59,416 bases of DNA from a virus. Below are positions 15,426-58,758 of the stretch, in pieces; position 1 is the stretch's first letter, and each line of letters opens with the position of its first letter. Location: positions 1 through 59,416 of IMG/VR virus record IMGVR_UViG_3300025402_000010. One strand, 5' to 3'. Below the pieces are notes generated by a model, which saw only the letters and a list, made by a program, of their open reading frames with translations, was not told the DNA's origin and ran no database searches. A program made the position numbers and the translations under genes.

Positions 15426-16061
15426 TTACAACAAGTCTTCAGCAGAAGATTGTCCGTACTCTGTTCCAACATCAAACATATCAACATCATTTTCATCTTC
15501 AATCGGGTGTTCAAGATCTGGTTTATACGTAATTGGTGTAGTATCAAGCCCCATATTACGTTTTCTTCTAGAAGCGACTTGTTTATTCCAATTAGTTTTA
15601 ATTTGTTCAAACCGTTTTCTTTTTGCTTCTTTAACCTCGTATGAAGCTTCAGGAGATTCGTTTGGGTTTACATATGGTCTAATATTTAATGAATCATTCA
15701 ATGCTTTCATTTGGTGATAAGCAACAAAAGAAGCATGGTTGATGCATGATGGAGTAGGGCTGGAGCCTTCATAGCAAACTACAGCTGTAGCGTCTGGGTT
15801 GTTAACTTTTTTGTTGTAATCACCCAAACTTTCAAGGTGTTCAATATCCGGATCAAGATCTCCACCGTTTTCACCCAGTGCATCAATATCAGCGCCTACT
15901 CTTCTGTCGTAAACGTCGCATTCACCAACTTGGTCTTTAGGCATACCAAACAATTTTTGAAAAGTTGGTTCATCAAATGATTGTTTAGCTGTATCCCAAA
16001 TACAGCGACCAACGTGAAGTGGCCGACCTGGTTTAATTTTTGTTGGTACTTGCCCTCTCAT
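15426..16061 (-). CDS. Hypothetical protein between giant Cys-rich genes
   Basis: A 211-residue hydrophilic protein with few cysteines (GRCIWDT, ECDVYD, VVCYEG, PSCINH). It reads like a short relative or a split-off part of its large neighbours: the composition is similar, and it lies 11 nt and 2 nt from them. No recognised family; probably co-translated with the flanking genes. Confidence 0.65.
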   Translation of the reverse strand: MRGQVPTKIKPGRPLHVGRCIWDTAKQSFDEPTFQKLFGMPKDQVGECDVYDRRVGADIDALGENGGDLDPDIEHLESLGDYNKKVNNPDATAVVCYEGSSPTPSCINHASFVAYHQMKALNDSLNIRPYVNPNESPEASYEVKEAKRKRFEQIKTNWNKQVASRRKRNMGLDTTPITYKPDLEHPIEDENDVDMFDVGTEYGQSSAEDLL

Positions 16062-32132: not shown

Positions 32133-32486
32133 TTAGTAGCTACCTTTAGGCTTAATGGACTCAAGGATCGTAGGCAGAATACTGCCTCCTTCTCTAACGT
32201 CATCAAAGTTGCGAGCATTCATATTAGGGTTTTCCCAGCTTTTGTGATTGTTAGCAACCTGGCTAAGGTAATCAGCAAGCTGTTTTGATCCTTCATCCCG
32301 GTTGTATCTGTACACCCAGTGAGCTCGAGCAGCACCAATATGTGCATTCATTCTGTCATAGTCACCAACTTTGTTGGCTTCTTGAGCAAGATCAGCGTGA
32401 CGTCTAATATAACGGTCAGTAATTTCGTGCTCTCCAGAATCATCACCAGCAGTACGGATATTCCACATGTCATTAATAAAGGGCAT
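32133..32486 (-). CDS. First gene of the leftward virion arm, hypothetical
   Basis: A 117-residue helical protein. The ATG at 32486 has AAAGGA 6 nt upstream; an alternative ATG at 32468 (MWNIRTAGDD) lacks a signal but resembles the tag on other proteins. The helices (LAQEANKVGDYDRMNAHIGAARAHWVYRYNRDEG) look like an alpha-helical repeat or bundle. Transcribed away from the 32.5-33.2 kb control region. Function unknown. Confidence 0.6.
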   Translation of the reverse strand: MPFINDMWNIRTAGDDSGEHEITDRYIRRHADLAQEANKVGDYDRMNAHIGAARAHWVYRYNRDEGSKQLADYLSQVANNHKSWENPNMNARNFDDVREGGSILPTILESIKPKGSY

Positions 32487-32603
32487 AATCAATCCTTTCG
32501 TATACTTCCTATACCAAAAAGTGTTGCTTTTTACATTGCGGACCTATATACTTAATAACACCAAACAAACAATGGTGTGTGTGGTTGGTATGCAACTTGA
32601 AAG

Positions 32604-32635
32604 CCCCTCTCTAGGAAATTCCTGGAGGGGGTTTT
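32604..32635 (+). terminator. Rho-independent terminator-like hairpin
   Basis: CCCCTC (32604-32609) pairs with GAGGGG (32625-32630), with a second short stem AGGAA/TTCCT inside, followed by GTTTTC. On the minus strand the stem is followed by CTTTC, a weaker U-run, so it may act in both directions. It is odd in a divergent region and may end leaky or antisense transcripts. Confidence 0.55.
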
Positions 32636-32643
32636 CTATTTAC

Positions 32644-32759
32644 TTTAGTGCACTTAGTATTGCAAAAGGGGTCTTAGGCCCCCCGCGATTTTTTTATACG
32701 TGCTTCGTGCCTGCCCATTTGGCCCCCTTCTTGGCCCCTTTTTTAGTGCACCTAGTATT
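32644..32759. repeat. 18-bp direct repeat pair in control region
   Basis: TTTAGTGCACTTAGTATT at 32644-32661 recurs as TTTAGTGCACCTAGTATT at 32742-32759, one mismatch, start-to-start distance 98 bp. GTGCAC is palindromic at the centre. Could be binding sites for a regulator or recombination-derived; the segment between them carries the second GC stem and T-run. Confidence 0.65.
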
Positions 32760-33162
32760 CAAAGTCCAAAAAGTTGCCATCCTATTATTTGCCTTACTGT
32801 GACGTTTGCATCACCAGCAGAAAAAGATTATGAACTTCTTTTGGTATTCGCCAACTAAGGCGGTACTCCTAACTCAAGGGTGTCCCCGAGAGTGTCACGC
32901 ACGGTATCTCACAGGCATTGTGTGCTGTGAGGGTGTGTGATCGTGCCAGCGTAGACGTAATGCGTCGTGCTGCGTAGTCAAGAGTACTACGAATGCCTCT
33001 CCACGCGTGTGAGCACTGTGCTGCTCAACAATACACGTCTCTGGTGCTGAAGAGTTAGCTGCAGGCGAGGTTCATCAGGAACTACGGTATCCACTACGGT
33101 ACCGTGGTTCGTGATGTGCAACGTATGCACGGGCAGTACCAATAGTCCTGAGGAGGACAACT

Positions 33163-33561
33163 ATGCAGTATTTGGTAATCAACACTTACCGTGACTTCCC
33201 TTTGTTCGGGGGTTGTCACTGGAGTCTTGAGGAGGCTTTCGAGGAAGTCGTCGCTGGTTGGCGCAGTGACATCGAAGAGCCGATCGTCATGAGGCCAACA
33301 ATGGACTACCCATTCGCCAACCGCGTCTCTCTCGAAAAGTCGGGCGAGGACTGGAAGCCAACTCCATTCAAGGCATGGACGACCGGTCCTGACCACCTGA
33401 ACCACTGGTACATCGTGCCATTGTTCGAGTGGGAAGACCGGATGTGCCTTGCAGACGAGCGCACTCCAGAGACAATCGATCAGGGTGATGAGCTCAAGGC
33501 ACAACTCCGTAGGGAGTTCAGCGAAGAGCTTGTCTTCTCCCCAGACGTTACGTCATTGTAA
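33163..33561 (+). CDS. First gene of the rightward block, hypothetical
   Basis: A 132-residue acidic protein with several Trp and Phe residues (MQYLVINTYRDFPLFGGCHWSLEEAFEEVVAGW). GAGGAGG 6 nt before the ATG is an excellent ribosome-binding site. Codons favour C/G third positions more than in the rest of the window, suggesting strong expression. No family recognised; position suggests an early protein. Confidence 0.65.
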   Translation: MQYLVINTYRDFPLFGGCHWSLEEAFEEVVAGWRSDIEEPIVMRPTMDYPFANRVSLEKSGEDWKPTPFKAWTTGPDHLNHWYIVPLFEWEDRMCLADERTPETIDQGDELKAQLRREFSEELVFSPDVTSL

Positions 33562-33635
33562 CATCCGGTGGATGCACTGACTCACGTACAGGATCATTTG
33601 TACGTGGGTTGTGTGGGTCAACCGGGACTCAGTGT

Positions 33636-33653
33636 CATAGTGGTCGTGCTATG
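33636..33653 (+). promoter_or_regulatory. Leader hairpin upstream of Shine-Dalgarno
   Basis: CATAG (33636-33640) and CTATG (33649-33653) pair around the loop TGGTCGTG. The stem ends 7 nt before AAAGGAGG. The next two short genes with the same GGAGGTGAAAT start signal have comparable hairpins, so this looks like a mRNA-stabilising or translation-enhancing leader. Confidence 0.5.
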
Positions 33654-33675
33654 GCGCTTGAAAGGAGGTGAAATC

Positions 33676-33969
33676 ATGACTAAATTTGATGTTTACAAGG
33701 CTGCTAGGGACGCTGCTGAGGCTAAGGTCGAAGCTGCTTTGGCTGCTTACGACGATGCTGGGGCTACGTACTACCCTGCTTTGGCTGAGCTCTGCGCTGC
33801 TCAGGCTGAGCTCGAGGCTGTTAAGGCTGCGTGCAAGGCTGCGTACGACGCTGCTGCGCTCAAGGCTGCTTCGGCTAAGTACAAGGCTGCTTTGGCTGAG
33901 CTCTACGCTGCTAAGGCTGCGTACGACGCTGCTTGGGCTGAGTACAAGGCTGCTAAGGCTGAGCAGTAA
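33676..33969 (+). CDS. Alanine-rich helical repeat protein
   Basis: A 97-residue protein after MTKFDVYKAARDAAEAK made almost entirely of Ala, Lys, Glu, Tyr, Asp and Leu in units such as KAAYDAA, KAALAELYAA and AEYKAAKAE. It should form one long amphipathic helix or coiled coil with Tyr along one face. Nearly every Ala codon is GCT, and Lys codons are AAG, a uniformity that suggests recent repeat expansion. AAAGGAGGTG lies 5 nt before the ATG, so translation should be strong. An upstream in-frame ATG at 33568 has no such signal. Function unknown. Confidence 0.65.
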   Translation: MTKFDVYKAARDAAEAKVEAALAAYDDAGATYYPALAELCAAQAELEAVKAACKAAYDAAALKAASAKYKAALAELYAAKAAYDAAWAEYKAAKAEQ

Positions 33970-33988
33970 ATAGTCCGGCTCATGCTAG

Positions 33989-34016
33989 GACCCACGAAGG
34001 AACATCGTCGTGGGTC
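33989..34016 (+). terminator. 9-bp hairpin after alanine-rich gene
   Basis: GACCCACGA (33989-33997) pairs perfectly with TCGTGGGTC (34008-34016) around a 10-nt loop, 20 nt after the stop codon. No U-run follows, so it may be a 3'-end stabiliser or processing site rather than a classical terminator. A second stem TGGGTC/GACCCA follows at 34019-34035. Confidence 0.45.
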
Positions 34017-34040
34017 TCATGGGTCAGTCGGACCCAGTGA

Positions 34041-34060
34041 TCATGACGGTCGTGTCATGA
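34041..34060 (+). promoter_or_regulatory. Leader hairpin upstream of Shine-Dalgarno
   Basis: TCATGAC (34041-34047) and GTCATGA (34054-34060) pair perfectly around GGTCGT. The loop matches the core of the hairpin at 33636-33653 although the stem differs, and GAGAGGAGGTGAAAT follows within 5 nt. Conserved loop plus changed stem argues for a functional RNA element. Confidence 0.55.
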
Positions 34061-34081
34061 CACTTGAGAGGAGGTGAAATT

Positions 34082-34240
34082 ATGACAAATCGTCGCCGCA
34101 GGGCATGGCGCCCCTCTGAGCTGTCTCAAGTCACAGCTCGGTACATCACATTAATTGGATGTGGTGCTGCGATTGCTGCTTCTGCAGTAGTCAGCGTTTG
34201 GATCTTTGTAGAGACTCTTCGTCTCTGCTTCGGTCACTAG
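34082..34240 (+). CDS. Small single-pass membrane protein
   Basis: A 52-residue protein: a basic N-terminus (MTNRRRRAWRPSELSQ), then one hydrophobic helix (ITLIGCGAAIAASAVVSVWIFV) and a short tail ending LCFGH. By the positive-inside rule the N-terminus would be cytoplasmic. The GGAGGTGAAATT just before the ATG is the same start signal as at 33676 and 35049. Small early membrane proteins in phages often alter host envelope functions; no direct evidence here. Confidence 0.6.
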   Translation: MTNRRRRAWRPSELSQVTARYITLIGCGAAIAASAVVSVWIFVETLRLCFGH

Positions 34241-34275
34241 TTCTTCGTTGGGTTCCCACCCAGCACTGCGTGTGT

Positions 34276-34305
34276 TAGGCAAGCACGTGGTTTAGTAAGT
34301 GCCTA
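34276..34305 (+). promoter_or_regulatory. Leader hairpin of the second type
   Basis: TAGGCA (34276-34281) pairs with TGCCTA (34300-34305), followed at once by GAAAGGA and the ATG at 34322. A hairpin of the same design with changed stem (TGAGCA/TGCTCA) precedes the gene at 34732; both loops end in AGTAAG. Paired changes in the stems support an RNA function. Confidence 0.5.
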
Positions 34306-34321
34306 GAAAGGAAACGATACC

Positions 34322-34657
34322 ATGGAATACTTTTACAAGGTTACCTGGTCGTATCAGTCAACCGTCGGTCGGATTGACGAAGACAACTACGAAAGGGTTA
34401 AGTATCGTCCATACATTGGTGTAGTAGAGCCAATGGTCCGCTACTTCAAGTCACTTGAAGACGCAATGGAGTTCTACTCTTCTTACGACTTCACATTCAC
34501 TGTGGACTACGGCCTCGTGGTTGGCGAGCGTTTTGACACGGCAGAAGAACCCTTCTTCCCAGTCAGCGTGGACAACGAGCTCATTGAAGAAGAGACCACC
34601 ATCATCACCACCACTCTCGTTGTAAAGCGAGAGTGCTTCACTGAGATTACTTATTAG
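34322..34657 (+). CDS. Hypothetical early protein
   Basis: A 111-residue acidic protein (MEYFYKVTWSYQSTVGRIDEDNYERVKYR) with many aromatic residues and a beta-rich look. GAAAGGA lies 9 nt upstream. GC-ending codons prevail as in its neighbours. No recognised domain. Confidence 0.6.
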   Translation: MEYFYKVTWSYQSTVGRIDEDNYERVKYRPYIGVVEPMVRYFKSLEDAMEFYSSYDFTFTVDYGLVVGERFDTAEEPFFPVSVDNELIEEETTIITTTLVVKRECFTEITY

Positions 34658-34684
34658 TTTCTCATCCGTTCATACGGTATGCGT

Positions 34685-34714
34685 TGAGCAAACATGCCGT
34701 GCAGTAAGTGCTCA
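34685..34714 (+). promoter_or_regulatory. Leader hairpin of the second type
   Basis: TGAGCA (34685-34690) pairs with TGCTCA (34709-34714); the loop ends in CAGTAAG, and GAAAGGAGG follows directly. Same architecture as 34276-34305 with a covarying stem. Confidence 0.5.
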
Positions 34715-34731
34715 GAAAGGAGGGGGTCATC

Positions 34732-34938
34732 ATGAAGACCAAGACCACCCCACGCACCGCAGTTAGCATCGCTACTGCTCCCAAGTGCTCCTGTGGCTAC
34801 ATCCCCTTGTTCGTCGACTCAACTGTTTGGGTTGACCGCGAGGGTAACAAGCTCCCAGGTATTGTTCCAGTATCCATGACGATCGATGGAGTCCAGCACT
34901 CCGTTGAGAAGTGCGGTACTGAGACCAAGCGCAAGTAG
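34732..34938 (+). CDS. Small hypothetical protein with CxC motif
   Basis: A 68-residue basic protein (MKTKTTPRTAVSIATAPKCSCGYIPLFVDS) with CSCG and a later single Cys (EKCGTE), which might hold a metal. The ATG at 34732 with AAAGGAGGGG upstream is preferred over an in-frame GTG at 34708 that lies inside the leader hairpin. No known family. Confidence 0.6.
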   Translation: MKTKTTPRTAVSIATAPKCSCGYIPLFVDSTVWVDREGNKLPGIVPVSMTIDGVQHSVEKCGTETKRK

Positions 34939-35001
34939 TACTCAGGTAGTGCCCTGGCAGGGGGCGTTGTACTCTGCTATCCCATCAACCAACTATAGGT
35001 C

Positions 35002-35032
35002 CAGTGACTAGGTTTGTCATAGCCTAGCACTG
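35002..35032 (+). promoter_or_regulatory. Leader hairpin upstream of Shine-Dalgarno
   Basis: CAGTG (35002-35006) and CTAGG (35008-35012) pair with CCTAG (35023-35027) and CACTG (35028-35032), giving a 10-bp stem with one bulged A and the loop TTTGTCATAG. It ends a few bases before GAGGAGGTGAAATT. Third hairpin of the group at 33636 and 34041. Confidence 0.5.
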
Positions 35033-35048
35033 TAGAGGAGGTGAAATT

Positions 35049-35360
35049 ATGACTAAGTCAACCCGCAACATGCGCTTTGCGCAGGTAGTGAAGGAGGAGC
35101 TCTCAGACGTCCTCGTTCGTCCTACCGTGCTCAGCTTCGATGCTATCCAGGAGAAGATTGCTTACTTCGACTCCATGATGGCTCTCGACGCTGACGGTGT
35201 GTGGAAGAAGTGGTACCCACGTACCACTCGTATCACACGCGCTCGCAAGCTTGAGGCCCACTTCTGTGTGGAGAACCCCAAGCAGATCGACGCACGTTCC
35301 AAGAAGGAGCGTCGCCTCGTGTTCTGCGAGACCTGCATCGAGTTCGAGGCAGGACTGTAG
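35049..35360 (+). CDS. Hypothetical early protein with C-terminal Cys pair
   Basis: A 103-residue basic protein. The C-terminal half contains EAHFCVENPKQID...LVFCETCIEF, three Cys and one His that could form a zinc site. GAGGAGGTG is 6 nt before the ATG. Lys codons are AAG almost throughout, in line with strong expression. No family recognised. Confidence 0.65.
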   Translation: MTKSTRNMRFAQVVKEELSDVLVRPTVLSFDAIQEKIAYFDSMMALDADGVWKKWYPRTTRITRARKLEAHFCVENPKQIDARSKKERRLVFCETCIEFEAGL

Positions 35361-35540
35361 TAGGTAACCCATCTAGGTAAGCCCGTGTGCCTAGACGCTG
35401 ACTGTGTAGTACGTGCAGTCAGTGGGTGGGGGTCACTCCCCACCTGGGTACGGTTACCCACGGGTAACCCCCGGCGACTGGGTTAAGTCGAATTATCACA
35501 CGAACGTATTGTGTGACGTAACAAACATTAGGAGACTGCC
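35361..35540 (+). other. Cluster of strong hairpins between genes
   Basis: In 180 bases there are four stems in a row: CTAGG/CCTAG (from 35374), CTGACTG/CAGTCAG (35398-35421), GGTGGGG/CCCCACC (about 35425-35444) and GGTTACCC/GGGTAACC (35451-35468, only two bases between). They could end the upstream transcripts and protect the 5' end of the next, but none has a clear U-run. A GGAG lies before the ATG at 35541. Confidence 0.45.
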
Positions 35541-36416
35541 ATGAAGGCATCTACTTTTGTGTCCCTGTCCACCCTCGACTTCAACGAGGAGGAGCTGTCA
35601 ACTGACCTTGACATCCTTCTCTTCGCTGACGAGGAGACGTCCGCTCAGTCAGACGGAGCCGTGCGTGTAGCGCGTCTCAACAAGACTGAGGCCATCACCC
35701 TGTCAGGTCTTTCTACTGACCTGGTGATCGGTCGCGGGCTCGCTGACTTCCGCAAGGAGTACTTCGACTGTGTCGTTGACTCCGAGGGGAAGATTGGTAG
35801 CTTCGTAGGCAAGCCCCTCCCCCAGGGTATTGTCTTCGACGCCACCTCCAAGCGTGACCGTGCGTACGGTACCCACGTGTACAACATTGCAGCGGCTCTG
35901 TCGCCTGCCTCTGTTGTCCACAGCGGTATGGTCTACGGTAAGTCGTTCCTGGCTAACCGTATGCAGGTTCAGATTGCATCTGACTTGCAGACCGACCCTC
36001 GTACCGGTGAGAAGTTCTACTTCATCGGTGTGCGTCGCTTCGGTATCCTCTCAGAGGCTACTGACTTCGCGTACCGTGACACCGGTCGTGGTGGCGTGCA
36101 GGCGCGTATCAAGTTGTACACCAACGTTGAGAAGGGTACCTTCTACTTCAAGGTGTTCAACAAGCTCACGCAGAAGCACGACCGCATCTACCAGGTTCCT
36201 GGTGACGTGCAGTGGTACGACCTCGTTAAGACTCGTCTTAACATGGCTCTGCCATCCGGCGCGTCGCGGTTGGACATCTACACCTCCGAGCTCAACAAGC
36301 TCGACGAGAACGTTGCTGAGGACCTGCGTGGTACCCAGCTGATGTTCTTCGAGGTGTACAAGACTGCCAAGGCTGCTATCATCGCGGCCAAGGTAGTGGA
36401 CGCCCCACAGGCCTAG
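35541..36416 (+). CDS. Hypothetical highly expressed protein
   Basis: A 291-residue soluble protein with no Cys-rich motif, no membrane segment and a balanced alpha/beta composition (MKASTFVSLSTLDFNEEELSTDLDILLFADEE). Codons are strongly biased to C/G endings (CTC, GTC, AAG, GAC), more than in any other large gene here, suggesting high expression. It stands alone between hairpin clusters. No family recognised. It might be a DNA-binding or host-takeover protein, but nothing in the sequence decides. Confidence 0.65.
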   Translation: MKASTFVSLSTLDFNEEELSTDLDILLFADEETSAQSDGAVRVARLNKTEAITLSGLSTDLVIGRGLADFRKEYFDCVVDSEGKIGSFVGKPLPQGIVFDATSKRDRAYGTHVYNIAAALSPASVVHSGMVYGKSFLANRMQVQIASDLQTDPRTGEKFYFIGVRRFGILSEATDFAYRDTGRGGVQARIKLYTNVEKGTFYFKVFNKLTQKHDRIYQVPGDVQWYDLVKTRLNMALPSGASRLDIYTSELNKLDENVAEDLRGTQLMFFEVYKTAKAAIIAAKVVDAPQA

Positions 36417-36422
36417 TCAGCC

Positions 36423-36444
36423 CCCAGTCCTGAGTCAGACTGGG
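36423..36444 (+). terminator. Perfect 7-bp hairpin after 291-aa gene
   Basis: CCCAGTC (36423-36429) pairs with GACTGGG (36438-36444), followed by TTACCTT, just after the stop codon. A second, longer stem CCCCCACAC (36463-36471) with GTGTGGGGG (36502-36510) follows. Together they probably end the transcript of the 291-aa gene. Confidence 0.5.
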
Positions 36445-36575
36445 TTACCTTAAACTGACTCGCCCCCACACCCACAGATGTTGTGTGTGCCCTCGAAGGG
36501 AGTGTGGGGGTCTATGCCGCAACGTATGCAGCAGAACATGTATCATACATACATGTAGTAGTAAAAGGAACAAGC

Positions 36576-36857
36576 ATGGATGCATTCCGTGTTATTGCAA
36601 TCGAACGCAAGTTCGGTAAGGTAGTCAACCGTACCATGTTGGGAGATGTATATTCCAACGTGAATCGTGCCAAGTATCAGTTGCGTACTTGGTATGGAGT
36701 GAAACGGTTCAACGAAGTGGCGGACAGGCTAATTGTGGGCTCATGCCGCCCCAGGTGGCACACAAAGCTCACGTTCGTCATCGCGCAACAGTCTTACTAC
36801 GAGGAGATCGCTAGCTACACCAGCGATGAGCTCGAGGAGATTGCAGCTAATGGCTGA
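36576..36857 (+). CDS. Small basic hypothetical protein
   Basis: A 93-residue protein (MDAFRVIAIERKFGKVVNRTMLGDVYSNVNRAKYQLRTWYG). The ATG at 36576 has AAAAGGAA 5 nt upstream; the frame extends to 36483, but that part overlaps the hairpin structures. It lies directly before the parS-like region, where a DNA-binding or partition helper might be expected, but no such motif is visible. Confidence 0.55.
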   Translation: MDAFRVIAIERKFGKVVNRTMLGDVYSNVNRAKYQLRTWYGVKRFNEVADRLIVGSCRPRWHTKLTFVIAQQSYYEEIASYTSDELEEIAANG

Positions 36858-36926
36858 GGAGTACACCGATTGGTGGAGAGTATTCAACCAGGTGCCTAGG
36901 GTCTAGGGCCTAGTTGTAACTCAAAT

Positions 36927-36942
36927 TGTTTCACGTGAAACA
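36927..36942. other. parS: parS-like site 1
   Basis: TGTTTCACGTGAAACA, a perfect 16-bp palindrome identical to the chromosomal parS consensus bound by ParB/Spo0J proteins. The flank continues as TATG, which is mirrored at the second site. Confidence 0.8.
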
Positions 36943-36962
36943 TATGTGTTTGTCTAAGCATA

Positions 36963-36978
36963 TGTTTCACGTGAAACA
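36963..36978. other. parS: parS-like site 2
   Basis: A second perfect copy of TGTTTCACGTGAAACA, 36 bp from the first (start to start). The facing flanks (ACATATG and CATATGT) form a larger inverted repeat, so the pair is arranged symmetrically. No parB gene is seen in the window. Confidence 0.8.
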
Positions 36979-37237
36979 TTCCCCGCATGGGGGGATATAT
37001 TTAGCTAAAGCTAACTCCTCCCATTGCATTTATGTTCATTGATGCGTACGTAAGGCATCGCAATACCATACCAATGTATGTTAAGTGGGTGGGTTCTATG
37101 AACCCGAGGTATGCTTGTTGACCTTGATGGCCCTAAACGTATCCTGCCATGTATACGTGCATACATACATGACTGTGCATGGCTAAGCATTTTTCCGTAT
37201 GTTAACGGGTATGTGCCTACATTGGTGTGGTATTGGG

Positions 37238-37279
37238 ATGTCTTAAAATTTTTATGTGTGTTTAGACACACATGACATC
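37238..37279. repeat. Nested inverted repeat
   Basis: GATGTC (37238-37243) pairs with GACATC (37274-37279), enclosing a perfect 8-bp stem ATGTGTGT/ACACACAT (37254-37261, 37266-37273) with a TTAG loop. It lies between the parS pair and the next gene and may be a terminator, operator or origin element. Confidence 0.55.
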
Positions 37280-37333
37280 CTCATATTCCTGCTCTAGTTG
37301 GATTTATATAGCAGGGGTATGGTTGTATATGTA

Positions 37334-37350
37334 CTTACTAAGTAAGTAAG
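37334..37350 (+). promoter_or_regulatory. AAGTA-loop hairpin 1
   Basis: CTTACT-AAGTA-AGTAAG, a 6-bp stem with the loop AAGTA, 27 nt before the ATG at 37378. First of eight such elements in the plus-strand block; stems differ while pairing is kept. Confidence 0.65.
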
Positions 37351-37377
37351 CTACAAATAGTATCAAAGGAATAACCC

Positions 37378-37596
37378 ATGGCAATAGTAACTGCCGAAGA
37401 GGTGCTGTCCAAAATATTGGCCAATGCCTGCCCTAGCAAACTACTCGATGGTGAGTACAAGTTGTTTCTCATAGAGACACACTGCGTCAATTGGCACGTG
37501 CAAGCCAAAATCATCCAAGAACCCTCGGACGACCAAGGTTGGTTGTTCGAAGTGCGTTCAATCGAGCCAGTAAACGAGGTGGTATATGATGACTGA
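37378..37596 (+). CDS. Small hypothetical protein
   Basis: A 72-residue acidic protein (MAIVTAEEVLSKILANACPSKLLDGEYKLFLIETHCVNW). AAAGGA lies 9 nt upstream. The end overlaps the next gene by 11 nt, so the two are translationally coupled. No family recognised. Confidence 0.6.
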   Translation: MAIVTAEEVLSKILANACPSKLLDGEYKLFLIETHCVNWHVQAKIIQEPSDDQGWLFEVRSIEPVNEVVYDD

Positions 37597-38074
37597 CCCT
37601 ATCCAGGCGTTGTTCGACCGCATCATGGAGGATGCACGTGATCAAAAGAGGGCAGAATCAAGTTATTACAACCTTGGTGACTTGATCGATGCCCTCGAGG
37701 GGATTGATTCAACTCTCCCCGTTGAGTTCACGTCAGCTGATAACAGGTACGGCAACGACCAACCAGGTGAGTTCTTCAGCTGGCGTGGTGACTACCACGA
37801 GCTTGCTCTTGGCTATTGCACCTCTAAGGTATACGACTGGAACACCAGTGAATACATCCCAGTTCCACCGCCCACCGTTGGTAGCTTGCTTGCTCGATGC
37901 ATTGCCGCTGATGGTGCTACCTTTGAGGGTTACAAGGGTGGTGACTTCACAATGAATCGGTCGTGCAGGATCTTTGTAGAGTTTGACCAGTCTTACTACA
38001 ATGGCCCGCAGATTGCTGATGTAACTGTGGTCGATGGCAAGTGCCTCATCAAGCTTGAGAACTGGACTGAGTAA
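37586..38074 (+). CDS. Hypothetical protein
   Basis: A 162-residue acidic protein with many Tyr and Asp residues (YYNLGDLIDALEGIDSTLPVEFTSADNRYGNDQPGEFFSWRGDYHELALGYC). A fairly compact alpha/beta sequence that recalls small phage proteins of unknown function. Two adjacent ATG codons are available; GAGGTGG lies upstream. Coupled to the previous gene. Confidence 0.65.
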   Translation: MMTDPIQALFDRIMEDARDQKRAESSYYNLGDLIDALEGIDSTLPVEFTSADNRYGNDQPGEFFSWRGDYHELALGYCTSKVYDWNTSEYIPVPPPTVGSLLARCIAADGATFEGYKGGDFTMNRSCRIFVEFDQSYYNGPQIADVTVVDGKCLIKLENWTE

Positions 38075-42982: not shown

Positions 42983-43053
42983 ACTGCAGTAGCTCAATGG
43001 TAGAGCAACCTGGTTAACCAGGTAGGTTGTGGGTTCGATTCCCACCTGCAGTA
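42983..43053 (+). tRNA. tRNA with irregular anticodon loop, possibly Asn (GUU)
   Basis: Acceptor stem ACTGCAG/CTGCAGT, D-arm GCTCAATGGTAGAGC and T-arm GTGGG-TTCGATT-CCCAC are all perfect. The anticodon arm ACCTG-GTTAAC-CAGGT has a loop of only six bases, so the anticodon cannot be read in the usual way; GTT (Asn), TAA (Leu) and AAC (Val) are all conceivable. The arm is a 16-bp palindrome. It may be a non-standard tRNA or tRNA-like element. Confidence 0.7.
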
Positions 43054-43082
43054 CGGTTCACATACCAACCCAGGTATGTGCC

Positions 43083-43100
43083 CGGTGTTCCCAAGCACCG
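43083..43100 (+). promoter_or_regulatory. Leader hairpin of the MoxR gene
   Basis: CGGTG (43083-43087) pairs with CACCG (43096-43100) around TTCCCAAG, ending 23 nt before the ATG at 43124 and followed by TTAAACACAGGGAG. Spacing and following sequence match AAGTA hairpin 6 (ATTAAACATTGGGAG), but the loop differs. Confidence 0.5.
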
Positions 43101-43123
43101 TTAAACACAGGGAGAAACATATT

Positions 43124-43882
43124 ATGACCACTGAATTCATCGAGGGAATCCCGGTTCCCCAGTGCTTCATTGACCTTAACGATGTACTTGCTGCAGGTTG
43201 CAAGCGTGTCATCCTCTACGGTCCCCCCGGCACTGGTAAGACGTATTCAGCTCAGACCCTGCATGTCAATGCAGCTGGGTTCGAGACTCTCCTTTGCTCC
43301 GAGGACATGAGCAATGCTGACATTGTCGGCGCCATGCTTCCTAACGAGCGTGGTGGTTTCTCGTACGTCAAGGGCATCGGTCCAATCACCTGGGATGGTG
43401 ACGGTACTGTTGGTGGTCGTCTCGTTGTTGACGAGATCAACCGTGCCAGCGGTGACGTTGTCACCACGTTGATGAAGTTCCTCGACAGTCCGGAGTCGGC
43501 GGTCTGGAAGAATCCTTACACTGGTGAAGTTCACTTCCCACGTGAGGGCTTCTCTGCCATCATGACCACCAACTTTGAGGATCCCAACGAGATCGAGGGT
43601 CCGCTGCGTGACCGCTTCCCGGTTGCAATCAAGATTGACGCTGCTCACCCAGCTGCGTTGGTCTCTGCATTGCCACCAGAGTTGCGCATGTTGGCTGCGA
43701 CTATCGTTGCTGGTCGTCCCGGTGAGCGTGCTTCGCTACGTGCCTGGAAGGAATTCCAGACGCTGCGCAACAGCCCTCTGTTCACCACTGAGCGTGCTGC
43801 CAAGCTGGTATTCGGTAAGATGGCTGACCCCATCATCGATGCCATCCGCATCGGCACCCTTAACACGGAAGTGTCACTGTAA
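43124..43882 (+). CDS. MoxR-type AAA+ ATPase
   Basis: A 252-residue AAA+ protein: Walker A GPPGTGKT (residues 33-40), Walker B LVVDEIN (100-106), sensor-1 region MTTNFEDP (near 147-154) and LRDRF (161-165) with likely arginine-finger residues. The NEIEGPLRDRF stretch is typical of the MoxR/RavA branch, whose members work with VWA-domain proteins to remodel or mature other proteins, often by inserting metal. The next gene, starting on its stop codon (TAATG), encodes exactly such a VWA protein. GGGAG lies before the ATG. In phages the target of this pair is unknown. Confidence 0.85.
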   Translation: MTTEFIEGIPVPQCFIDLNDVLAAGCKRVILYGPPGTGKTYSAQTLHVNAAGFETLLCSEDMSNADIVGAMLPNERGGFSYVKGIGPITWDGDGTVGGRLVVDEINRASGDVVTTLMKFLDSPESAVWKNPYTGEVHFPREGFSAIMTTNFEDPNEIEGPLRDRFPVAIKIDAAHPAALVSALPPELRMLAATIVAGRPGERASLRAWKEFQTLRNSPLFTTERAAKLVFGKMADPIIDAIRIGTLNTEVSL

Positions 43883-45345
43883 TGGTTGACGAGCAGAAGC
43901 CCCTTGTAGGGGCAATCACTGCGTTCCGTGACGACGTAGCTGAGCCGATTGACTGGACTATTCAGCCCACTGTGGGTCAGAATGGTGTCGGTGTCGACTG
44001 GGCTGCAAAGGTACTGGCCGTCCCCCTTCGGGGGGACGACTGGTCCCGTCGTACGCAGCTCCGTGAGCTTATCCGTGCTCGTATATCACCTACGACTGGT
44101 GATGTAGCCAGGGTATTGGCCGATGGTTACAAGAACCAAGGGGTCAACAATGCTCTTCTCAATCTTGCAGAGGAGGCTCGTATCAACGCTGTTACTGAGC
44201 CTTTTGCCAAGATTAAGGGTCTTGAGCTTGACTCTACCGGTGCGGAGAAGAAGTCAGGTATCCGTATGGCAACGTCCGGTAGCCCTAACGACTGGGAAGA
44301 TGCAGTCGACTTCACTGTTCGCAACTACGCCAACAAGTCAGCATTCGACTCGTTTGCTGCTGGCGTACGTTCTGTGAACCCAGAGTGGAGTGACAGGCTA
44401 CGTAGGCTTGCTGGTCGCCTTGATAGTATCTTTGAGGGTACGCCGGATGACATTGGTTCTACCATGCCGTATTACTACAGTAGTGACGTGGTTGGTCCAA
44501 GGGGTTACAACAATACTCTTGTTGCAGCCTCTGAGATTGCCATCTATGCCAATGGCAAGCGCGCTCCTAGTGATGTTAAGCAACAGCGCCAGGATGATGA
44601 CGACAAGGCTCTTGAGGAGTATGGTGAGACGGAGCAGGAAACCAACCGTCTTAATCCTGACCAGACAATGCTCGAGGACGAGTTGCCTAACGACTTTGAG
44701 TTCCCTCACGACGAGAACGGAGATTTTGCGGAGCTTGTCATTGACGACACGCTTCCACTATCTGTCCAAGTCGAGGGGTTCATGAAGCGTAAGCGTAAGC
44801 CTGTTCTTGTCGGTCGTAAGATCGGTAACATTACCAGGTTCTACACTGACCCCGAGCGTCGTATCTTTACCCAGAAGATGCGTGTCAAGGGTGGCATGGT
44901 CATCATCGACATCTCAGGTTCTATGTCTCTGTCGCAGCAGGACATTGAATCAATTGTCGAGGCAGCACCTGCTGCTACCATCCTTGCATACAGTCAGACT
45001 CACTACCTTGACGCTAACGCGTGGCTCCTTGCCAAGCGTGGCTGGCGTGTACGTGAGATTCCATCTATCGGTGGTGCTGGTAACGGTGTTGACGGTCCTG
45101 CTCTGGTATGGGGCATCAAGAATCGTCACCCTAACGAGCCAATCATCTGGGTAACAGATGGTGAAGTCACTGCTGACGGTGGTGGTCAGAACGACCGCAT
45201 CATTATTCAGTGTGCTCAGTTGGTCAAGAAGCACAAGATCATCATGATTCCTTCTGTTGCAGAAGCAGTCAAGATGTTCAAGTCCGGTAAGCTTATCAAC
45301 AAGCCTGCCGGTCCGATTCGCAAAGCGCTTCTTGGTCGTCTGTAG
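43882..45345 (+). CDS. VWA-domain (CoxE/MoxR-partner) protein
   Basis: A 487-residue protein. The C-terminal 150 residues form a von Willebrand factor A domain: MVIIDISGSMS (Asp343, Ser345, Ser347) gives the metal-ion-dependent adhesion site, a Thr/Asp-bearing loop appears later, and IIWVTDGEVT (Asp426) follows. The N-terminal 300 residues are mostly helical, with an acidic linker (KQQRQDDDDKALEEYGETEQE). Pairs of MoxR ATPase and VWA protein act as metal-chelatase-like or chaperone complexes. The 1-nt overlap with the ATPase gene indicates they are made together. Confidence 0.8.
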   Translation: MVDEQKPLVGAITAFRDDVAEPIDWTIQPTVGQNGVGVDWAAKVLAVPLRGDDWSRRTQLRELIRARISPTTGDVARVLADGYKNQGVNNALLNLAEEARINAVTEPFAKIKGLELDSTGAEKKSGIRMATSGSPNDWEDAVDFTVRNYANKSAFDSFAAGVRSVNPEWSDRLRRLAGRLDSIFEGTPDDIGSTMPYYYSSDVVGPRGYNNTLVAASEIAIYANGKRAPSDVKQQRQDDDDKALEEYGETEQETNRLNPDQTMLEDELPNDFEFPHDENGDFAELVIDDTLPLSVQVEGFMKRKRKPVLVGRKIGNITRFYTDPERRIFTQKMRVKGGMVIIDISGSMSLSQQDIESIVEAAPAATILAYSQTHYLDANAWLLAKRGWRVREIPSIGGAGNGVDGPALVWGIKNRHPNEPIIWVTDGEVTADGGGQNDRIIIQCAQLVKKHKIIMIPSVAEAVKMFKSGKLINKPAGPIRKALLGRL

Positions 45346-49266: not shown

Positions 49267-49908
49267 ATGCCCAATCATGTATACAATTCAGTAACATTAA
49301 CCGGTAGCTTTAGAGACCTTACAAGGTTAAAAATGCTACTTAACATGCCTCATGAATGTCAACATGTTCATAATGATACTGATATTTCACAGTTTAATTT
49401 TTTCAGTTTACTAGCACCAGATAAATCTGTATGGGATGAATACTATGGTGAAGAACCTAGTTATAAAGACCTTGCAGAAAGAGTGCGCCATTCTACTAAT
49501 CATTGGTACGATTGGAACGTTCGTAACTGGGGTACTAAATGGAATGCTTATGACATTGATTACTCAGATACATTTGACAATGATGACATTGATAATAACC
49601 AACACAGTATTAGTTATCATTTTAATACTGCTTGGTCACCACCATATGGTATCATTACTGCTCTTTCTAAAAAGATTGAAGAGCTTAAATTAAACGTTAC
49701 GTTTAGTTGGCACTACGAAGAAGAGCAGGGTTGGGGTGGTGAATTTGAATACGATGGCAACACATTAAGTGTTGTTGGAGAGTGGGATATACCCGCAAGC
49801 CATGCTGATTATCAATCACGAGACAAGGTAGAAAATTGTGTTTGTAGTTGGTCAGACGACATGGATGATTGGTTTGAGGATTGTCCTCGACCAGAAGAAA
49901 GTAAGTAA
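49267..49908 (+). CDS. Api92-like protein (DUF1281-type ferredoxin fold)
   Basis: A 213-residue protein. It starts MPNHVYNSVTLTG, contains WYDWNVRNWGTKWNAYD and YHFNTAWSPPYGIITALSKK, then a WHYEEEQGWGGE segment. This series is the signature of a family of phage and plasmid proteins predicted to have a ferredoxin-like fold; their role is unknown. AAGGAAC lies before the ATG. Confidence 0.75.
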   Translation: MPNHVYNSVTLTGSFRDLTRLKMLLNMPHECQHVHNDTDISQFNFFSLLAPDKSVWDEYYGEEPSYKDLAERVRHSTNHWYDWNVRNWGTKWNAYDIDYSDTFDNDDIDNNQHSISYHFNTAWSPPYGIITALSKKIEELKLNVTFSWHYEEEQGWGGEFEYDGNTLSVVGEWDIPASHADYQSRDKVENCVCSWSDDMDDWFEDCPRPEESK

Positions 49909-55691: not shown

Positions 55692-56026
55692 GATTGCTCT
55701 CTCCCCACCATTAAACCGTGAATTGTAGTGTAACTTGCATTATCAATACTAGGCCCATGTACTACTGTGAATTTTCCACCTTTATGACCATCAAGCCCAT
55801 TAGGGTCATAAATTGCAGTATCTTCACTAGACTTTCTACATCCACCATTTGAGCAATGATGAATTATTGCCATAAACGGACGCCATTGCTCTCGGTACAT
55901 TTTTTCATTGCTTGTACCAGGCACTCTTCGCCATTGTTTATTACCAAAATTAAACTCATAGGCATTACTTAAACCACCTATGAACCTAGTGTTATCGTCA
56001 CTAGAGTAACGTAAATTCCAGTTCAT
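55688..56026 (-). CDS. Hypothetical protein with MNWNLRYS tag
   Basis: A 112-residue protein. After MNWNLRYSSDDNTRF it continues as a small beta-rich domain (YEFNFGNKQWRRVPGTSNEKMYREQWRPFMAIIHHCSNGGCRKS) ending FTVVHGPSIDNASYTTIHGLMVGREQS. It has no close likeness to its tagged neighbours beyond the first eight residues. The start overlaps the terminase stop. Confidence 0.6.
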   Translation of the reverse strand: MNWNLRYSSDDNTRFIGGLSNAYEFNFGNKQWRRVPGTSNEKMYREQWRPFMAIIHHCSNGGCRKSSEDTAIYDPNGLDGHKGGKFTVVHGPSIDNASYTTIHGLMVGREQS

Positions 56027-58758
56027 CGTCTACCTGGCCTTCCCCGAGACATACCACCGTAATCACGCTGTGAACGCTGCGCACCAAACACACGTAGCCT
56101 ATCTCTAGCAGAGACAGGTTGCATATCGTTAGCGTTGCGGGTGTGGTAGCCACCCTGAGAACCAGACAATAGCTGTGTTTGACCAAGTTTATCACGCATT
56201 TCTAGCTTAACAAAGTTATCTTCTAGTAGAGAATCAACAATAACCATGAGGCAGTCAGATAAGTCTTCTGTACGGATAGGTCCAATATCTTGCTTCTTAA
56301 CTCGACCATTGACCTCTTGCAAGAACTTTAGCTCTTGCTCTAGCAAACTTGTTCCATTGGGGCCATACACATCACGGAACGAGTGTACCCAATTCATACC
56401 CAATGCAGATTTGAATCGTTCAGCACGACGCATGTTGCTTTCTTTGGTAAATTTTTCTTCACGCACCTTAACCTGGTGGGCAGGTCTAACCTGTTGCAAA
56501 CGCTTTTTTAATCGTGGCAATGTAACAAACGCACCGTATTGGTCAAATGAGAAAACCTTAGTTGTACGGAAATTGCATAACGTATCAACTAATTCCTCCT
56601 CTATCTCTTCGTAGTCGATCTGATTATCAGGGTAGTTTTCGGGGTCCCATACCTTGATCCAGTCAATAACAACGTGGTACCACTCTTCACCGTCTTCAGG
56701 GTCAGCGATCTTTTCTACGTGACCAATCATGGCTGCTGTATTAGCACCGGATTTTGATGGGTCGCAGTGGCCCGTGTAAACAATGCTAAATTTGCCTTCG
56801 TGCTGTAGCTCAAGCTCTCGAAGCTCACCATTAGCATCAATAAACGGATCAAACATACGCTCAACCATTTTTGGATTGAGGTAAGCATTAGTAACTTCAG
56901 CCCATTGGCTTAGACGCTCAACCCTAAACGTGTCAGGCTCACGCTTTTCCATGGATTGCATTTGTTCGTCGTAGCTCTGAGGTGCACGACGGTAAAACGA
57001 AACAAATCTTGGGTCATCCCAGTCTTCGTATGGCCCCCACGATGGTAGCTGTGCCATCATCATGTTTGGATACATGGGTGCACCGTCTTCATTCTTCTCT
57101 AACGCAGACTCGTACAGGCTGTATGCTTTACCAACCTTGGTATTGTGGCTAAACATACCAGCAGCAAGCAATGTGCTAGTAGAAGTACCCAGAGCAATAA
57201 CATCGCGGTTGCCCGCATCTTCTATGGACTCAACAGTAACATACTTGGACGTCTTATCATAAATTCTTGTGCCATAGAATTGGTTAGTAAATTTTGAGAG
57301 TAAACGACGTGGTCGGATTGAACCGAGGAACTTCATCTTTTCCGATGAACCACCATTGATAATAATATCAATGCAATCTCTTCCTTCTTCTTTTAATGTT
57401 GTGCTAATATCACAACCACGTTCGATAAGTAACTCAACGATGTTATCTAATACTGGGCCTTTATTCTGTGCTATGCCGAGCAAACCCTGCTTAGAATAAT
57501 AACCTTCGCCATCGAATATCCCTGAAAGATAACCAGCATCGTATGATTTGTCTGTTTCCCATGTATCCGTGTAACGAATCATGTCACCCGGCTTAAGATT
57601 TTTGGTTTTAACCCAGTTTAATTCAGAAGAATAAGGCTTCTTTGTTAGCCAAAGGTGCTCACCGGTGCAAACAACTTCAGGACCATCAGTTTTTAATTTA
57701 AGTGTTGGAGCGTTGATAATAGATGTTTCTTCAACGACTGCTTGACGCCAGCTTCTACCGTTGCCCTTGCCACCTGGAGCATACTCATCAAAACCAATTA
57801 TCTTATCCCCGACTTTTAATGAACCGACAGGAACCCACGTGAGGTCTTCTAGAAGGACCGGAGTCTCCGGTACCAAACAAAACGGTGATGTGGGTACGTA
57901 AATCAAACCATCTTTACCCATCTGGTCCAATGCAGGGGTAATAGCGTTGTATACTTCGTCAGACGTTCTTGCACCACCCGTACCGACCAACATGTGTGCA
58001 AACTCGTCGAACATAACGCCAAAGGCAGCAGCACCACGCGAGGCTTTAGAGTTACTCGTCACAGCCATGTTACGGATACTAGCGATCAAACGGCTAGGTC
58101 TGATGTCTCTCGATTCAAATGCGGCGATGCGTCTGATGTCAGCAGGCGTACGCAAAGCAAGAAAGTGCTCCTTAGCGTCAGCAATATATGGCTGGAAGCA
58201 TGGAGCATTAATGATGGTGTTTGCAAGGTCAGCAAACTGGTATTTCTTAGCCTGTTCAATGTTCGTAGCAACGCAAAACAGGTAAAGGTCTTTTGACTTG
58301 TCAATGTTGTAGTAGTACTGGGGGTCGTCAAGCATAAGCAGTTCCCAGTTTTTATATGCACCCAGGATTCCGCCAATGTGGCCCTTACCGCCACGACGAC
58401 CCGTGATGTTTACCACTTCACGAAAATGCTTGTAACCATTTGCTTTCAAGTATGCGATCCGGTCAAGGATGTCCGGGCTTACGCCTATTCTATCACCGTT
58501 AAAATCAAAATCTTTGGTCCACTTATCAATGATTTCGTAGTCATAATCGTCAAGGTTTTCTGTCTCAAGCATGATAAGTTTAAGAAGCGTGCGTTGACGT
58601 GGGAAAAGCTTACTACCACCCAAGAAGCTTGGGTGCTCAGCAAACGTGACAATATCAGGTAGATCAGCCTTTTCTTTGAGGCTTTTCTTGGCTATCTCAA
58701 AGAAGTCTTGCTGTCCACGAAGAATGTTAGCATTACTATTCTTTGTAATTTTAGGCAT
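56023..58758 (-). CDS. terL: Terminase large subunit with intein
   Basis: A 911-residue precursor. The ATPase part shows a Walker A variant NITGRRGGKGH (residues 117-127), Walker B FGVMFDEFAHM (246-256) and the coupling motif YVPTSPF (287-293). The nuclease part follows: FSIVYTGHCDPS, VFSFDQYGAFVTLP and DLSDCLMVIVDS supply the acidic metal ligands. Between Phe293 and Thr540 lies a 246-residue intein, so the mature protein is about 665 residues. The enzyme packages DNA into proheads by ATP hydrolysis and cuts concatemers. It lies 48 kb from the portal gene, an unusual separation. Confidence 0.9.
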   Translation of the reverse strand: MPKITKNSNANILRGQQDFFEIAKKSLKEKADLPDIVTFAEHPSFLGGSKLFPRQRTLLKLIMLETENLDDYDYEIIDKWTKDFDFNGDRIGVSPDILDRIAYLKANGYKHFREVVNITGRRGGKGHIGGILGAYKNWELLMLDDPQYYYNIDKSKDLYLFCVATNIEQAKKYQFADLANTIINAPCFQPYIADAKEHFLALRTPADIRRIAAFESRDIRPSRLIASIRNMAVTSNSKASRGAAAFGVMFDEFAHMLVGTGGARTSDEVYNAITPALDQMGKDGLIYVPTSPFCLVPETPVLLEDLTWVPVGSLKVGDKIIGFDEYAPGGKGNGRSWRQAVVEETSIINAPTLKLKTDGPEVVCTGEHLWLTKKPYSSELNWVKTKNLKPGDMIRYTDTWETDKSYDAGYLSGIFDGEGYYSKQGLLGIAQNKGPVLDNIVELLIERGCDISTTLKEEGRDCIDIIINGGSSEKMKFLGSIRPRRLLSKFTNQFYGTRIYDKTSKYVTVESIEDAGNRDVIALGTSTSTLLAAGMFSHNTKVGKAYSLYESALEKNEDGAPMYPNMMMAQLPSWGPYEDWDDPRFVSFYRRAPQSYDEQMQSMEKREPDTFRVERLSQWAEVTNAYLNPKMVERMFDPFIDANGELRELELQHEGKFSIVYTGHCDPSKSGANTAAMIGHVEKIADPEDGEEWYHVVIDWIKVWDPENYPDNQIDYEEIEEELVDTLCNFRTTKVFSFDQYGAFVTLPRLKKRLQQVRPAHQVKVREEKFTKESNMRRAERFKSALGMNWVHSFRDVYGPNGTSLLEQELKFLQEVNGRVKKQDIGPIRTEDLSDCLMVIVDSLLEDNFVKLEMRDKLGQTQLLSGSQGGYHTRNANDMQPVSARDRLRVFGAQRSQRDYGGMSRGRPGRR
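57142..57879 (-). mobile_element. Intein within the terminase, with LAGLIDADG-type endonuclease
   Basis: Residues 294-539 of the terminase precursor. It starts with Cys294 (CLVPETPVLLEDLTWVPVGS, block A), has a block-B-like VVCTGEHLWLT, a LAGLIDADG-type motif LSGIFDGEGYY (near 411) and ends in DVIALGTSTSTLLAAGMFSHN followed by Thr540. This is the standard layout Cys1, TxxH, terminal HN, nucleophile +1. Only one clear LAGLIDADG motif is visible, so the endonuclease may be single-motif or degenerate. It interrupts directly after the conserved TSPF coupling motif, a site where inteins would be hard to delete imprecisely. Confidence 0.9.

Follow-up and report, generated by a model that had tools for sequence, protein, structure and literature searches.

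We identified two perfect parS sites, lying within a non-coding gap of a viral DNA stretch of 59,416 bp (hereafter the window, which is an entire IMG/VR record yet covers just part of a larger phage genome), and our results suggest that they probably act in cis as a cluster loading host ParB, in a probably virulent actinobacterial myovirus with no detectable partition proteins. Indeed, the recruitment of host ParB is favored because the sites are exact, they are conserved in place among relatives, neither ParB nor ParA was detected, and the variant found in the relatives (TGTTCCACGTGGAACA) is used in parS clusters of bacterial genomes. Altogether, the sites are real, conserved and probably functional.

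The 16-bp palindrome TGTTTCACGTGAAACA occurs exactly twice in the window, with a start-to-start distance of 36 bp (Table 1), as the initial annotation had read it. No further copy with up to three mismatches was found elsewhere in the window, and the reversed parS pattern gave no match there. Under a first-order Markov model built on the window, 4.4e-5 exact copies would be expected against the two found, in agreement with the earlier opinion that a chance origin is very unlikely. The mirrored flanks mentioned in that annotation proved to be a perfect inverted repeat, with arms TGTTTCACGTGAAACATATG and CATATGTTTCACGTGAAACA. Both sites fit exactly the pattern TGTTNCACGTGAAACA, according to which chromosomal parS varies (review PMC7022226), and they combine an above-chance frequency with conservation, as expected from a chromosomal-type parS. 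The proposed match to the consensus of chromosomal ParB is thus an exact one at the level of the letters, and the suggested comparison with actinobacterial parS revealed a core identical to that of Mycobacterium smegmatis (GTTTCACGTGAAAC, PMC7022226). In contrast to the chromosomal parS of Actinomycetota, the window sites are located on a phage genome and form an inverted pair with 36-bp spacing.

Table 1. Features around the parS pair of the window, and parS-like sites at the conserved position in related records (G051 to G055 and G076 to G078).
Feature	Position	Strand	Remarks
parS site 1	36927..36942	.	TGTTTCACGTGAAACA, exact palindrome
parS site 2	36963..36978	.	TGTTTCACGTGAAACA, exact palindrome
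Perfect inverted repeat	36927..36978	.	20-bp arms 36927-36946 / 36959-36978, 12-nt spacer; encloses both parS
Weak terminator-like hairpin	36979..36994	+	TTCCCCGCATGGGGGG then ATATATTT; consensus match only; abuts site 2
Non-coding gap holding the parS pair	36858..37377	.	same gene position, also a gap in L188, L190 and L250
Inverted repeat, 28 nt, 89% complementary	37051-37078 / 37218-37245		139 nt between arms; within parS gap
Upstream gene, 291 aa, function unassigned	35541..36416	+	weak homologues, same position relative to sites, in L191, L192 and L250
Small ORF just upstream of parS	36577..36857	+	GTG 36483 in ORF list; ATG 36577 after AAAGGA
First gene of rightward operon after parS gap, 72 aa, function unassigned	37378..37596	+	
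Sites in G051, G052			TGTTTCACGTGGAACG + TGTTCCACGTGGAACA, 100 bp apart
Sites in G053, G054, G055			TGTTCCACGTGGAACA + 3-mismatch copy 34 bp away
Site in G076			TGTTCCACGTGGAACA
Sites in G077, G078			TGTGTCACGTGAAACA; TGTTTCACGTGAGCTT 22 bp upstream, read directly

The gap that holds the pair (~0.5 kb) contains no plausible gene, in line with the non-coding location first described, and the other repeats reported nearby include the 28-nt imperfect inverted repeat of the same gap. An 86-aa ORF at 37011-37271 on the minus strand was considered as a gene and rejected (GTG start, no counterpart seen in the ORF lists of relatives), and no Rfam family was found within 32400-38000. Among the relatives, L190 displays a 17-pair hairpin at the place equivalent to the hairpin of the window, and an ORF of 90–104 aa stands at the place of the small upstream ORF. 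Note that a short element around TGTTTA-ACACA is located downstream of the pair, both in the window (37247-37275) and in relatives (L190 at ~878-905, with equivalents in L188 and L250).

Related metagenomic phages were gathered using the vWA gene (43882-45345) and the terminase as baits, landmarks were set by tblastn, and the relatives were scanned for TGTTYCACGTGRAACA; the gene at 35541-36416, used as bait, retrieved no relatives. All related records reaching the region (8/8) carried a parS-like site in the equivalent interval, which lies upstream of the MoxR and vWA genes, and the position is conserved in five lineages, the window included. In each of these eight records, the sites at the conserved position are the sole ones with at most one mismatch to TGTTYCACGTGRAACA, matches of such kind being expected at ~4e-5 per 1 kb. 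The usual variant of the relatives is TGTTCCACGTGGAACA, and most of them display a second, usually degraded site 22–100 bp from the first. Between most lineages, alignments of the DNA around the site are poor, whereas the site itself is kept. Six records (G050, G074, G075, G079, G081 and G082) were excluded as they end before the parS region, and G080 is ambiguous, as its stretch upstream of the 41189 homologue measures just ~1.3 kb. The distant relative G073 has no parS at the conserved position; its parS-like match elsewhere, in a different region and apparently inside a gene, was taken as chance, as were the two-mismatch matches found off the conserved position in G051/G052 (at ~59/33 kb) and G079 (at 41 kb). 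It should be noticed that the MoxR-type AAA ATPase and the vWA protein (43076-45345, plus strand, with a DISGSM metal-site motif) form a well conserved non-structural pair in the clade, and that the lake phage DSL-LC01 has a distant counterpart pair, annotated as AAA ATPase and ‘cobalamin biosynthesis protein’.

The substitutions observed in the relatives' sites fall at the positions that vary in chromosomal parS (TGTTNCACGTGAAACA) and are often symmetrical. Among the matches listed for TGTTCCACGTGGAACA in bacterial and archaeal genomes, 51 of the 80 loci examined have two or more parS-like sites within 8 kb, and the extra parS-like sites around these 80 loci, again among the matches listed, amount to 78 vs 0 for the reversed pattern. 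As an example, the actinobacterium Kineococcus vitellinus has five such sites. Judging from this clustering, TGTTCCACGTGGAACA is part of the chromosomal parS repertoire.

The portal protein of the window is ~39-40% identical to the portals of Gordonia phages SCentae and Pupper and of Bixzunavirus (cluster C) mycobacteriophages, and its terminase and the one of Rhodococcus phage Finch share 43% identity; no related terminase was found in bacterial and archaeal genomes. On these protein similarities, the carrier is a large actinophage, distant kin of Bixzunavirus (cluster C) and Rhodococcus myoviruses, and the genomes of the named actinophage relatives measure ~110-160 kb. WhiB genes are frequent in actinophages, and the window contains one; from this WhiB gene and the actinophage relatives, an actinobacterial host is very probable. 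Some further features of the carrier deserve mention. The large terminase subunit (56023-58758, minus strand) displays an in-frame insertion of ~235 residues (~305-539) that is absent from L188-L191 and has a weak internal LAGLIDADG_3 match; this insertion is likely an intein. Otherwise different proteins share the N-terminal peptide M-N-(W/F)-x-x-R-Y-A (minus-strand starts at 56026, 54762, 59007, 32130 and 28644), also found in L188, L190, L204 and L250, which is reminiscent of a shared signal for targeting or of a propeptide, e.g., for head packaging. The cumulative GC-skew minimum near 29.9 kb was considered as an origin marker but not retained, as it also tracks the change in gene direction.

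Profile searches for ParB_N (PF02195) gave no match in the window, in 15 related metagenomic records (up to 132 kb) or in the complete Finch genome, and neither ParA-type ATPases (PF13614) nor tyrosine integrases (PF00589) were matched in 18 records, Finch included; the controls of these searches responded as expected, with ParB found in 10/14 control genomes and ParA-type ATPases in 14/14. The search for parA and parB beyond the window, as suggested in the initial annotation, thus detected neither gene in the 15 relatives or Finch. A parB lying just outside the window, as that annotation had envisaged, is therefore unlikely, in view of these negative searches in relatives reaching 132 kb. Its extrachromosomal prophage gained no positive support: neither ParA nor a tyrosine integrase was matched, and the related isolate Finch is predicted to be lytic (PMC13313380). 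What persists of the first interpretation is the chromosomal-type parS together with the recruitment of host ParB, which synteny and sequence favor. ParB and ParA, the proteins of a self-contained parABS (RedRock, P1 or N15 type), are both absent by profile search, and the observed combination is that of phi29, i.e., a chromosomal-type parS with no phage ParB, in a window that is itself a fragment.

The complete genome of Rhodococcus phage Finch (138,896 bp) contains one exact parS at 97852-97867, in the intergenic region between the adjoining gp150 stop codon and gp151; this phage was described as a predicted-lytic myovirus, without mention of parS (PMC13313380). Finch is related to the window through its terminase and has an exact intergenic parS with no ParB_N, but it differs by having a single site and another gene neighborhood. 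No parS with up to two mismatches was found in SCentae, Tonenili, TinyTim, LE2-3 (Eggerthella), DSL-LC01 or Rhodococcus phage E3, nor was any parS found in cluster C phages; the trait is patchy in the wider phage group. On a larger scale, a 30-base query centered on parS matched 340 cultured-phage records vs 2 for the reversed control. This count partly reflects the relatedness of the genomes, for which it is uncorrected, and unannotated Listeria records that are perhaps host DNA; some of the sites lie inside genes. Whole-record scans of eleven matched phages gave 33 sites with up to two mismatches and 0 reversed-control matches, and a ParB_N match was found in just 2 of the 11. The clearest ParB-less cases are Gordonia phages Kampe and Hello, Arthrobacter phages Emotion and Atuin, Lactobacillus phage Lpa804, Ruegeria phage V10 and the phi29-like Goe22, with 2-7 sites, no ParB_N and a reversed control of 0. 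The Gordonia, Arthrobacter, Lactobacillus and Ruegeria isolates with 2-7 parS and no ParB_N correspond to KU998254, MK450435, OQ709216, OK040794, NC_048134 and MH015255. In Atuin (OK040794.2), exact parS copies at 15670, 16194, 192558 and 193082 form two pairs, both with 524-bp spacing, near both genome ends, possibly in long terminal repeats. Microbacterium phage NoodlelyBoi (MW578837.1) has an exact parS at 42997 inside a helix-turn-helix gene, and a ParB_N protein at 49279-49539. Note that IMG/VR contigs with paired parS (66 records, 3 with ParB_N over the cut-off) were kept out of the core evidence, many being perhaps host or plasmid fragments.

ParB acts as a CTP-bound clamp that closes at parS and slides outwards (PMC12704722). 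In our proposal, the chromosomal ParB of the host would bind the phage parS after infection, close as a CTP-dependent clamp and slide onto the flanking phage DNA, and the loaded ParB would tie the phage genome to the ParA and SMC machinery of the host. The likeliest benefit would be that, under delayed lysis, phage genomes not yet packaged are positioned or inherited, as has been proposed for phi29 and Spo0J in sporulating Bacillus; SMC loading and a decoy role are other candidate gains. According to Meijer 2005, as cited in PMC9437464, Spo0J assists the entry of the phi29 genome into spores, with Spo0A restraining the lytic cycle meanwhile. Phi29 (Salasmaviridae), a virulent phage that uses host Spo0J/ParB (as cited in PMC9437464), likewise has chromosomal-type parS on its genome, and in its relative Goe22 four sites with one mismatch each were found, again with no ParB_N. 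Unlike phi29 (~19 kb, a spore-former host and scattered sites, some in genes), the window belongs to a large actinophage with a tight pair in one non-coding gap, and its use of ParB is putative.

The main rival explanation is that the sites are paired operators, recognized by a dimeric regulator encoded by the phage whose target sequence happens to match parS, and that these palindromes control the adjacent transcription units. Intergenic paired palindromes of conserved position beside a rightward operon would suit such a role, as would the other inverted repeats and hairpins of the region, including a 7-pair hairpin between the sites of L190. However, the sites of the window and L190 follow a gene end and precede a terminator-like hairpin; they do not lie in an obvious promoter, the next gene being several hundred bases away. 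Moreover, the identical 16-mer occurs in unrelated phages of unrelated hosts, and TGTTCCACGTGGAACA itself clusters with other parS in bacterial genomes. We thus consider the operator decidedly unlikely. Somewhat less unlikely is a decoy, whose confidence overlaps with that of our preferred explanation as it uses the same ParB binding: the sites would titrate host ParB, and thereby SMC/ParA, off the chromosome, disturbing segregation or freeing host DNA for degradation. Multi-copy phage DNA would multiply the sites and ParB clamps spread from parS (PMC12704722), but the clade has one or two sites per genome, when more would be expected of a decoy.

A plasmid-like temperate phage with its own divergent ParB/ParA, undetected or encoded in unsequenced genome parts, appears very improbable. 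The window is a fragment, the metagenomic records may all be incomplete, a divergent ParB could fall below HMM detection, and actinophages with their own parABS exist. Indeed, RedRock and other Cluster A extrachromosomal prophages are also actinophages with centromere-like DNA; however, RedRock has its own ParA and ParB, and in RedRock-type parS an 8-bp motif is directly repeated eight times (PMC7157519), whereas the window has the chromosomal 16-bp palindrome and no detectable Par proteins, the negative searches in relatives and Finch being backed by their positive controls. A chance occurrence, or a functionless hitch-hiking remnant of host DNA, is hardly credible: single parS-like 16-mers do occur inside genes of some phages (e.g., the Ranunculus portal gene), but this reading is contradicted by the conservation of the site in place, across five lineages with diverged flanks, and by two perfect copies vs 4e-5 expected.

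The loading of host ParB thus stays our preferred explanation, and the case seems to represent a phi29-type use of host ParB in another phage type. The open-access literature yielded no general description of parS in phages without ParB, and the wider pattern is apparently undescribed in the literature searched. More tentatively, and with somewhat less than even confidence, host-type parS without parB may be a widespread convergent strategy of virulent phages (with hosts in Actinomycetota, Bacillota and Alphaproteobacteria), enlisting ParB clamps and SMC to position or organize their DNA outside sporulation. Isolated phages of this kind include Finch on Rhodococcus erythropolis, Kampe and Hello on Gordonia terrae, and Atuin and Emotion on Arthrobacter. 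ParB and parS rank with the best conserved components of chromosome segregation in bacteria; were large virulent phages to carry the host centromere as a rule, infection would plug straight into the DNA-positioning machinery of the host. The phi29 case, known from spore formers, would then be extended to actinobacterial myoviruses, and a sequence overlooked in the annotation of such phages would be accounted for.
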